DNA of 22,503 nt from a virus. A model generated the notes under the pieces. It worked only from the letters and a program-made list of their open reading frames with translations. It was not told the DNA's origin and made no database searches. The translations under genes and the position numbers were made by a program. How positions within the stretch are numbered: position 1 is the first letter of the stretch; the number at the start of each line of letters is the position of its first letter. Location: positions 1 to 22,503 of the IMG/VR virus record IMGVR_UViG_3300025141_000844; one strand, 5' to 3'. Positions 3,526-6,095 of the stretch are shown one piece after another.

Positions 3526-3766
3526 TAAAGTAGGAAAGTATGGGGTATGGCTATCTCCCGGTGAGATGGATATAATAGAGAGGTCTCTGGATTGGTTTGA
3601 GAACAGCACTCATTACTTCGACAGAACTTTAAAAATTGGAGCGATAAAAAATCTGCAAAATGACCTTCAAAAAATCAAGGAAAATGGGCCTCAAATACCA
3701 AAAAAGGTTGAGATTAGCGATGAAGAGTATATCCAATCTCAAGTAGAATGCAAGGAGTGCGACTAA
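3518..3766 (+). CDS. Small hypothetical protein
   Basis: This 82-residue protein overlaps the helicase end by 8 bases. It has a YGVWLSPGEMDIIERSLDWFE segment that reads as a helix-rich fold, then a lysine-rich linker and an acidic end with a CKEC pair. The two cysteines alone are too few for a zinc site. AAAGG at about 3505-3511 supports the start. No family is recognised. Its overlap with both neighbours indicates that it is expressed as part of the helicase operon. Confidence 0.65.
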   Translation: MSSKVGKYGVWLSPGEMDIIERSLDWFENSTHYFDRTLKIGAIKNLQNDLQKIKENGPQIPKKVEISDEEYIQSQVECKECD

Positions 3767-4104
3767 TGGCAAAATATAGAAACAAAAAGCCTACAATAAG
3801 AGACTTACAGGGAGATATAGGGATATGCATTAGGAGAATACTGAAAGTTGAAGAACATATAACTGAAGTAATAACTCCAGCCTTATCTCAAACAGCAAGT
3901 CTTTTAGAGAACTTTATCCAGTACACAGGCAACATTGATGACTTTGTGAAGTACATGGAAGAAAAGGAGAGTGAATATGAGAAGAAAATTAAGAACAAAG
4001 GCTCAGAAAAAAGGCCGCAGAAACAGACAGCGAGGAGCAGAACTGCAAAGACAGGCAGTAAGAATGTCAAAAGAATTGGACCTCGAAGCCCACAACAGGG
4101 ATAG
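3766..4104 (+). CDS. Hypothetical helical protein with basic tail
   Basis: This 112-residue protein has an N-terminal basic patch (MAKYRNKKP), a long helical middle (residues about 14-75), and a Lys/Arg/Ser-rich tail. I chose the ATG at 3766, which overlaps the previous stop (TAATG), because AAGGAG at 3752-3757 lies 8 bases upstream; an in-frame ATG at 3748 lacks this. The last 128 bases are read in a second frame by the resolvase-like gene. The tail is of low complexity, so the functional part is probably residues 1-75. The function is unknown. Confidence 0.6.
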   Translation: MAKYRNKKPTIRDLQGDIGICIRRILKVEEHITEVITPALSQTASLLENFIQYTGNIDDFVKYMEEKESEYEKKIKNKGSEKRPQKQTARSRTAKTGSKNVKRIGPRSPQQG

Positions 4105-4303
4105 GGGAGGAGCACAGCATGAGAAGGGTGATGTTGAAATCGAAGGATTGTACTATGGGTGCAAAAGAAAAAAGGTCATACCATCATGGGTTATGCCTGA
4201 GAAGGAAGAGATTGGCGTGATATTCAGAGCAGATAGGATGGAGCCATACATATCCATACCTTTGGACAGGTACTTAATACTAATGGCGGCTCTAAAAATA
4301 TAA
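3977..4303 (+). CDS. Holliday-junction-resolvase-like PD-(D/E)XK protein
   Basis: This 108-residue protein resembles Hjc/RusA-scale PD-(D/E)XK nucleases that cut branched DNA. A basic N-terminus (KKGRRNRQRGAELQRQ, with E22) leads to the core RDRGGAQHEKGDVEIEGL (D52) and then YGCKRKK (K63). A later FRADRMEPYISIPLDRYL segment is typical of this group. The normal E-x-K of the active site (as in VECKRR) reads G-C-K here (G61). The ATG at 3977 has GGAG at 3966-3969, 7 bases away; a GTG at 3971 is less likely. It overlaps the upstream gene by 128 bases. Its position after the helicase and annealase suits branched-DNA processing. Activity is uncertain given the missing acid. Confidence 0.6.
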   Translation: MRRKLRTKAQKKGRRNRQRGAELQRQAVRMSKELDLEAHNRDRGGAQHEKGDVEIEGLYYGCKRKKVIPSWVMPEKEEIGVIFRADRMEPYISIPLDRYLILMAALKI

Positions 4304-4307
4304 AAAG

Positions 4308-4362
4308 GGGTCAGCGTGCGGGGTTACGCCTCCTTTCCTCCCCGCTTCCGGAACGCTGGCCC
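4308..4362 (+). promoter_or_regulatory. GC-rich two-part hairpin between ribosome site and ATG
   Basis: GGGTCAGCGT (4308-4317) pairs with ACGCTGGCCC (4353-4362), ten pairs including one G-U. Directly inside, GCGGGG (4318-4323) pairs with CCCCGC (4340-4345), six more pairs, with a seven-base bulge on one side. The region is far richer in G+C than its surroundings. A purine run AAAAAGGG lies just before or at the base of the stem, and the ATG at 4370 follows the stem by 7 bases. Folding would therefore bring the ribosome binding site and start together. It is not followed by a U-tract, so it is not an obvious terminator. Confidence 0.45.
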
Positions 4363-4369
4363 TCTTCCA

Positions 4370-4621
4370 ATGATAGAAGTTAAGCAAGGTAAGAAACACG
4401 AGAAAGATAAGATTGTCTTTATAAATGGGCATCAAATTACGTACAGGGAACTTGCTGAGATATGTATTGTTTTCTGCAAGAATGAAGATAATATATACCC
4501 TCCTCCATTCTATCGCGGGGGCCAATATTTTATTGACTTCATTACAGAATGTATGAATGATAGATGCGTGAGTGAAGAAATATTAAAGAAATATAAATTG
4601 ACAGATGGAGATAAAGAATAA
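4370..4621 (+). CDS. Hypothetical protein behind a structured leader
   Basis: This 83-residue protein has a beta-strand-like start (IEVKQG...KIVFINGHQITYREL), a helix with two cysteines, a PPPFYRGGQYFIDFI segment and a charged helical end. The frame is open from a GTG at 4316, which has AAAGGGG 5 bases upstream and would add 18 residues. Those extra residues are encoded wholly by the GC-rich hairpin and have an atypical Arg/Pro/Gly composition, so I favour the ATG at 4370. It overlaps the methyltransferase gene by 17 bases. No family is recognised, and it is not visibly a restriction endonuclease. Confidence 0.6.
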   Translation: MIEVKQGKKHEKDKIVFINGHQITYRELAEICIVFCKNEDNIYPPPFYRGGQYFIDFITECMNDRCVSEEILKKYKLTDGDKE

Positions 4622-5444
4622 AATAATTACTGGTGACTGTCGTCAGGTGCTAAAGGAATTTCCTGAAGCTGTTGTTAATACTACAGTTACGTCACCACCG
4701 TACTACAACCTTAGAGACTACGGCAACGAGAATCAAATAGGATTAGAAGATTCTATTGACGATTATATTGAGCAACTCTGCCTCGTGTTTGATGAAGTGT
4801 ACAGAGTTACTGTACAGGACGGCACTCTATGGCTGAACATTGGAGACTGCTACGCTGCTGGTGGAGAGATTAATTCTGATGGTAGGAGAGGATTCTCAGG
4901 TGCTGAAACTATGGGATACCGTAGCAAGGCTGTAGGTGGGCTGACATCAAAAGATTTAATAGGTGTGCCGTGGAGGTTAGCCTTTGCCCTGCAAAAACGC
5001 CAATGGATACTACGTAGTGATATCATATGGTCTAAGTACAATCCTATGCCTGAGTCAGTAACAGACAGACCCACGATGAGCCATGAACATATATTTCTAT
5101 TTGCTAAGAATAAAAAATATTACTATGACCATGAGAGCATCATGGAGAGAACAGATGACATAAAATATCCAAAAAGAAATAAGAGGGATGTATGGCAGAC
5201 AAGAGTTGCCAGTTATCCCGAAGCACATTTTGCTACCTTTCCAATGGAGTTAATAACTCCCTGCATAAAGGCTGGTAGCCCTGAAGGTGGGTTGGTACTC
5301 GACCCCTTCATGGGCTCCGGTACTGTAGCGGAAACAGCAAAGAGATTGAGCCGTAACTATACTGGTTGCGAACTTAATCCAGAGTACCATAAGATAATAA
5401 ACAACAGACTAAAACAGGAGGAGTTATTCCATGCCAGAATATGA
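4605..5444 (+). CDS. Beta-class DNA methyltransferase (N4-cytosine or N6-adenine)
   Basis: This 279-residue S-adenosylmethionine-dependent DNA methyltransferase modifies an exocyclic amino group. The catalytic motif IV is TSPPYYNLRDYG at residues 29-40 and comes before the SAM-binding motif I, LDPFMGSGT, at 232-240, the order of the beta class. Between them are LWLNIGDCYA (75-84), KDLIGVPWRLAFALQ (116-130), IWSKYNPMPESVTDRPT (141-157) and AHFATFP (207-213). All are typical of phage and bacterial N4/N6 enzymes with SPPY. CELNPEY after motif I completes the SAM pocket. No restriction enzyme is visible, so this is an orphan enzyme that may protect phage DNA from host nucleases. The ATG lacks an upstream Shine-Dalgarno, so coupling to the previous gene is likely. 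Confidence 0.92.
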   Translation: MEIKNKIITGDCRQVLKEFPEAVVNTTVTSPPYYNLRDYGNENQIGLEDSIDDYIEQLCLVFDEVYRVTVQDGTLWLNIGDCYAAGGEINSDGRRGFSGAETMGYRSKAVGGLTSKDLIGVPWRLAFALQKRQWILRSDIIWSKYNPMPESVTDRPTMSHEHIFLFAKNKKYYYDHESIMERTDDIKYPKRNKRDVWQTRVASYPEAHFATFPMELITPCIKAGSPEGGLVLDPFMGSGTVAETAKRLSRNYTGCELNPEYHKIINNRLKQEELFHARI

Positions 5445-5667
5445 CAACACTAACAGGGGAGTTCTGTTCCCCAATAAATACAAGGAAGAGTCAGACAGTA
5501 AGCCTCATTTCCTTGGCACAATCAACGTAGAAGGTATAGAATTTCGCTTAGCTGGTTGGGAGAATACTTCCAAGAACGGCAAGGACTACATTAGTGTACG
5601 TGTAAGCGAGATGGACTACAAAGGCGAAGGCAAAGAAAAGGAGTCTTCATCTGACGTCCCTTTCTGA
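5431..5667 (+). CDS. Small SSB-like protein with DVPF tail
   Basis: This 78-residue protein starts with NTNRGVLFPNKYKE and contains INVEGIEFRLAGWENTSKNGKDYISVRVSEM, a beta-rich pattern I associate with small phage proteins often annotated DUF736-like or ssDNA-binding. The C-terminus is a Lys/Glu/Ser linker ending DVPF, like the acidic DDIPF tip of bacterial SSB that recruits repair and replication proteins. A strong AGGAGGAG at 5417-5424 lies before the ATG. It overlaps the methyltransferase by 14 bases. I infer a role in protecting ssDNA and recruiting partners. It is far shorter than canonical SSB, so it may bind as an oligomer. Confidence 0.65.
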   Translation: MPEYDNTNRGVLFPNKYKEESDSKPHFLGTINVEGIEFRLAGWENTSKNGKDYISVRVSEMDYKGEGKEKESSSDVPF

Positions 5668-5845
5668 CAAGAAATGGGAATTAATTAAGAGTTATGCTAT
5701 TGCTCAATCTATAATTGGCATAAAAAAAACTCTTAAAGCTAAAAGAAAGATAGTAGGCTATGGGCCATTATCAGACGCATCAATAACTAAACTTAAGTTT
5801 TTAATTGAAAGACTGAGGAAAATATATGTCGATGAAAATAGATGA
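5651..5845 (+). CDS. Hidden 64-residue gene, apparent CTG start
   Basis: The apparent 158-base gap after the SSB-like gene is open in one frame to a TGA at 5843-5845. The translation looks coding: SDKKWELIKSYAIAQSIIG, then a lysine-rich stretch, KIVGYGPLSDASITKLK, and an amphipathic end. No ATG, GTG or TTG exists in the frame after the upstream TAA at 5603-5605. The only near-cognate candidate with a ribosome site is CTG at 5651, with AAGGAG at 5638-5643 exactly 7 bases away. The gene would overlap its neighbours by 17 and 20 bases, as is normal in this operon. A +1 frameshift at TTC-TGA-C (5662-5668), fusing it to the SSB-like protein, is the alternative. The function is unknown. Confidence 0.5.
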   Translation: MTSLSDKKWELIKSYAIAQSIIGIKKTLKAKRKIVGYGPLSDASITKLKFLIERLRKIYVDENR

Positions 5846-6095
5846 TGATGGCTCTGTGCTTGCTGCTGTAATGCTTGGCATAACTAGCAAGGTAGCTAGG
5901 TCTGACATAAGTAGAAAGAATAACATGGATAAAAAGGCTGACAGAACTATGTATTTATGTGAAGAGTGCGATAGAGTATGGGAGTATCCTATCAACGGCT
6001 CAGGATATTATTATAAAGTTGCTAACTATTATTCAAGCGTGCCATCATATGGAAAAGGACGTAAAACGTGTCCATTTTGTAAAAGACAGGGGTAA
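5826..6095 (+). CDS. Zinc-ribbon protein, last gene of the + strand arm
   Basis: This 89-residue protein has four cysteines in two CxxC knuckles: C45-E-E-C48 followed by DRVWEYP, and C82-P-F-C85 at the end. This is a zinc-ribbon pattern, usually used to bind nucleic acid or protein partners. The N-terminal 40 residues are helical and hydrophilic. GAGGA at 5815-5819 is 6 bases from the ATG. It overlaps the CTG-start gene by 20 bases. It might be a small transcription or translation modulator, but the sequence gives only the zinc fold. The gene is followed by the convergent virion gene block. Confidence 0.75.
   Translation: MSMKIDDDGSVLAAVMLGITSKVARSDISRKNNMDKKADRTMYLCEECDRVWEYPINGSGYYYKVANYYSSVPSYGKGRKTCPFCKRQG

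Follow-up and report, generated by a model that had tools for sequence, protein, structure and literature searches.

The 64-residue reading frame at positions 5651 to 5845 (plus strand) of a 22.5 kb linear virus record, here called the window and analyzed over its full 22,503 nucleotides, is probably a conserved gene of a phage replication module that starts at the CTG codon at 5651, where this codon would have replaced an ancestral ATG, with the preceding single strand DNA binding protein (SSB)-like gene ending normally. A gene starting at CTG had been proposed in an earlier note on this DNA, and it is now supported as the best reading by homologues that start with ATG, by amino-acid-level constraint and by a relative, L069, whose ATG occupies the same place.

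The replication module and the open frame after the SSB-like gene

The left 6 kb of the window carries a rightward replication module consisting of a helicase, found to be of the DnaB type in a Pfam search, an N6/N4 DNA methylase, the SSB-like gene and small genes. The SSB-like gene (5431..5667, plus strand, 78 aa) matches PHROG 7364 (single strand DNA binding protein) with an E value of 7.8e-14. Its predicted core is beta-rich, with a pLDDT of 67 in a model built from 10 sequences, which bears on the question of an OB fold, and its disordered acidic tail (pLDDT < 50) has the end ...SSSDVPF before the stop TGA at 5665-5667. This Pro-Phe end is invariant in the alignment of the close set (A2), and 105 of 114 distinct relatives terminate in PF or GF. 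In bacterial SSBs, the Pro-Phe tip binds partner proteins. The next gene in the ORF list (5826..6095, plus strand, 89 aa) encodes a CxxC zinc-ribbon-like protein with homologues in the corresponding position of L066-L072.

Between the SSB stop and the ATG at 5826, 158 bases are without a listed ORF. The earlier description of this gap (5668-5825) as fully open in one frame was confirmed, the frame of 5651 being open from 5606 to 5842 with its stop at 5843-5845, and each of the remaining five frames across the gap being interrupted by stops. Also as described, no ATG, GTG or TTG is present in the open frame 5606-5842; the CTG at 5651..5653 (plus strand) is the sole NTG upstream of the conserved core, and an AAGGAG Shine-Dalgarno (SD) sequence lies 7 nt before it, inside the SSB gene (5638..5643, plus strand). 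The resulting protein, P0001, would overlap both neighbors, with 17 nt shared with the SSB gene and 20 nt with the zinc-ribbon-like gene. Two other points of the note were imprecise. The composition of the gap, described as like that of its neighbors, is clearly poorer in G+C (29%, against 39.5% for the module and 44% for the SSB gene), and relatives of the P0001 gene are often AT-rich as well. Nor is the gap the only one in the operon, another stretch without a clear gene being found near 654-778. A fully open plus-strand frame across a gap of such composition has a chance of about 2%, and it is homology, rather than this openness, that is the real proof of a gene.

The duplex of AAGGAG with the 16S tail was calculated at -8.2 kcal/mol, stronger than at any compared ATG start of the relatives (0.1 to -3.3 kcal/mol, and -6.9 for L090). 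Within the module, 4.3% of positions attain this value of -8.2 kcal/mol, as do 4 of 81 CTGs. The same six bases encode Lys-Glu in the SSB tail, and that coding role may explain their presence. A possible mRNA hairpin just after the CTG, spanning the SSB stop (5657..5679, plus strand; -9.8 kcal/mol, z -2.6), was chosen after the fact and has no counterpart in L069 or L066; being weak, post hoc and not conserved, it was set aside as a stimulator of frameshifting or initiation.

Other features of the module were observed during the same comparison. The ORFs at 3748-4104 and 3971-4303 lie in different frames and share 134 nt; the pair, including the overlap, is retained in L066-L073, L079 and L082. 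At 4316-4366, a conserved N-terminal V(W/R)GYASFPPR... follows a GTG and then gives way to unrelated sequence, with counterparts in L066 (6349), L067 (8492) and L068 (8153); the ORFs of L066 and L067 reach a stop after 18-22 codons and resemble a short leader peptide ahead of the methylase region. The methylase (4605-5444, against 8745-9575 in L069) is 90% identical between the two phages and the helicase 79%, which suggests, on these identities, that the methylase was recently exchanged. The ORF at 779-1015 runs in another frame into the beginning of the 882-1514 gene; nearly its whole length is matched in L066 (45%, E = 5e-16), and it is perhaps a real overlapping gene.

The P0001 family and its start codons

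Relatives of P0001 were reached through a helicase search of viral contigs. Homologues were found directly after the SSB gene in L066, L069, L070/L071, L072, L073, L079 and L082 (tblastn E values of 7e-7 to 1e-14), as well as in L090, and profile matches had E values of 1e-16 to 1e-34. More distant members follow the helicase gene in L083 and L084 or occur in other phages (L093, L095, L096, L097 and L182-L187). The genes of this family adjoin those for SSB, helicase or recombination proteins. When viral contigs were scanned with the single P0001 sequence, no match was obtained, because the relatives are only about 50% identical, and scans of genome contigs with the helicase and with the P0001-family alignment gave no relative. 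The one tblastn match in phage GenBank (E = 1) was rejected as a chance hit, since it lies in another frame inside a TraC-like gene and has no profile score.

Outside the SSB overlap, the 58 codons compared with L069 gave a pS of 0.74 and a pN of 0.30, and the comparison with L066 gave 0.71 and 0.38, respectively; as pS exceeds pN in both cases, P0001 is under amino-acid-level constraint. No indel or stop was found, and all the residues that were invariant in the first alignment (A16, Q19, G23, T27, K31, L55 and R56) are present. The lack of any homologue and of purifying selection, which the earlier note had named as grounds for abandoning the gene, was therefore not observed, and the comparisons indicate that the gap contains a real gene. 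In close relatives, the slot between the SSB gene and the zinc-ribbon-like gene also holds something else, an unrelated Cys-containing gene in L067 (10034-10342) and L068 (9659-9952), and the slot is on this account read as a site of gene exchange.

P0001 was predicted by AlphaFold2 to fold into three helices with a mean pLDDT of 90, helix 1 comprising residues 4-22, and it is basic, with a pI of 10.1 (8.8-11.1 in the family). Searches of Pfam, PHROGs and PDB sequences with P0001 yielded no convincing family, and a PDB fold search with the model returned nothing significant. A viral protein of 63 aa in BFVD (A0A516KX23) has a nearly identical predicted fold (TM 0.93/0.95, 35% identity, Foldseek E = 5e-4). 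From gene neighborhood and charge only, P0001 is probably a replication accessory protein of the SSB or helicase, perhaps an SSB partner, and with its relatives it makes up a small family of proteins from phage replication modules that has no convincing Pfam or PHROG match.

The starts of the homologues were compared, as the earlier note had advised. All eight distinct SSB-linked homologues lie in the +1 frame relative to the SSB gene and have their own ATG inside its 3' end, 14-50 nt before the SSB stop; none is fused to the SSB. The ATG of L069 (9791) stands 14 nt before the stop, at the exact place of the window CTG (alignment A5), and those of the other relatives 26-50 nt before it. The sequence after the start is also alike in the window and L069 (CTGACGTCCCTTTCTGA against ATGAAGTCCCGTTCTAA). 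The window gene thus shares with L066, L069, L070-L073, L079, L082 and L090 its family, its place after the SSB gene, the +1 frame and the overlap with the SSB end, but these relatives all start with ATG, mostly with a weak SD or none, whereas the window has CTG and a strong SD. Among the distant members, the first available start is ATG or TTG, and the window is the only member of the family without a standard start. In the helicase tree, the window is placed among L066-L069 with a support of 99/100, amid ATG relatives, and the CTG is for this reason most simply taken as derived from an ancestral ATG. In a distant phage (L116, near 3263), an HTH-like gene starts at a +1-frame ATG inside the acidic SSB tail, where GAT-GAN gives ATG, and start codons for following genes may readily arise in SSB tails.

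Alternative readings of the start

The true phage might instead have ATG, GTG or TTG at 5651 and thus an ordinary overlapping gene, the CTG being a base error or a rare variant. CTG and ATG are one base apart, the record comes from one metagenome assembly, with no other IMG/VR record matching the start region GGAGTCTTCATNTGACGTCCCT in an exact-pattern search, and the prior of a consensus base error is of about the same order as that of an AUG to CUG switch. The SSB frame nevertheless vouches for the C, because base 5651 falls in the second position of an SSB codon, TCT (Ser), and A, G or T there would give Tyr, Cys or Phe, residues never found at this place among 105 distinct relatives (D 68, S 19, E 14, V 2, G 1, K 1). 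Ser is the usual SSB residue there in close relatives, and an SD as strong as that of the window is unusual among relatives, so a base error or variant is considered unlikely. The loss of the start in a gene no longer translated, that is, a young pseudogene, would agree with the lack of a standard start and the weakness of CUG, and also with the dispensability of the gene in this clade, seen in that L067 and L068 carry an unrelated gene in its place. Decay, however, is not what the frame displays: stops, indels and losses of invariant residues are absent, the divergence is of the third-position type, as between intact relatives, the strong SD stands at the right spacing, and the overlap with the next gene is kept. 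A pseudogene is accordingly judged quite unlikely.

A +1 frameshift at TTC-TGA-C, by which the P0001 product would be fused to the SSB in the manner of release factor 2 synthesis, had been offered as the alternative in the earlier note, which pointed to the likeness with the release factor 2 site. That likeness is partial. The window shares with prfB a zero frame that ends in TGA with C as the next base and a continuation in the +1 frame, and all eight SSB-linked relatives have TAA instead. The TGAC (5665-5668) is not special, though, because TGA followed by C also occurs in the genes of 4 of 114 SSB relatives. Release factor 2 frameshift sites need CTTT preceded at three nt by an SD-like element (PMC12421855), and the window is without both the CTT-T slippery codon and the SD at 3 nt found in prfB: the codon in the P site is TTC, the tRNA of which would be poorly matched to TCT on re-pairing, and AAGGAG precedes TTC by 18 nt. 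The TGA-C site is, moreover, not conserved in the relatives, each of which has an ATG of its own, and the conserved Pro-Phe at the C-terminus of the SSB would be buried in a fusion. The fusion is consequently disfavored and regarded as very improbable. Re-initiation after SSB termination at the in-frame ATT at 5684 (or at 5699) would give a shorter protein, and the former lies 17 nt after the SSB stop with a weak SD-like sequence (-4.2 kcal/mol). Such a start would cost the protein half of helix 1, some of the conserved block and residues conserved in the family, and AUU is even rarer as a start (PMC5622118), making this the most improbable of the readings considered.

Proposed CTG initiation and comparison with known systems

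For the preferred reading, initiation at the CTG, the course of events would be as follows. Ribosomes translating the SSB gene would open the mRNA, a 30S subunit would bind AAGGAG (5638-5643), and initiation with fMet would occur at CTG 5651, 14 nt upstream of the SSB stop, yielding the 64-residue basic three-helix protein, while SSB synthesis itself would terminate normally at TGA 5665. Both the initiation at CTG and its coupling to SSB translation are inferred from sequence. If CTG replaced an ancestral ATG, the strong SD and the overlap with SSB translation presumably offset part of the weakness of the new start. The rarity of CTG initiation in bacteria, stated in the earlier note, agrees with published values: CUG drives about 0.86% of AUG expression in E. 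coli and is the start of about 0.024% of annotated genes (PMC11497404). Switches from an ancestral AUG to CUG were counted in 2 of 61,358 cases, and switches to weak start codons are accompanied by a stronger SD (PMC5622118), a trend that the strong SD at the window CTG fits, as expected for compensation. With T as the preceding base, only CTG among the NTG codons fits an ordinary SSB residue, which suggests why the start became CTG. A further proposal holds that the CTG is kept by selection, since the SSB tail requires Ser (TCT) and the overlapping frame can therefore offer CTG only, the strong SD and the coupling being tuned for a fixed low ratio of small protein to SSB; this is thought rather unlikely.

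CTG initiation is thus already known but rare, and the window would represent a well-supported phage case by comparison, a clean example of a switch from ATG to CTG in which the overlapping frame limits the possible base. Genes of this kind are missed by gene finders limited to ATG, GTG and TTG, as is that of P0001. The closest parallel is the rep gene of the FIB replicons of F-type plasmids, also a bacterial replicon gene for which a CTG start with a good ribosome binding site has been demonstrated, and which is often mis-annotated with a later start (PMC11983097). The start of FIB rep was proven by N-terminal sequencing and mutation (PMC11983097), whereas that of the window gene is derived from comparison with its relatives; FIB rep encodes a replication initiator and has no overlap with an SSB gene, in contrast to the window gene, which would begin inside one.
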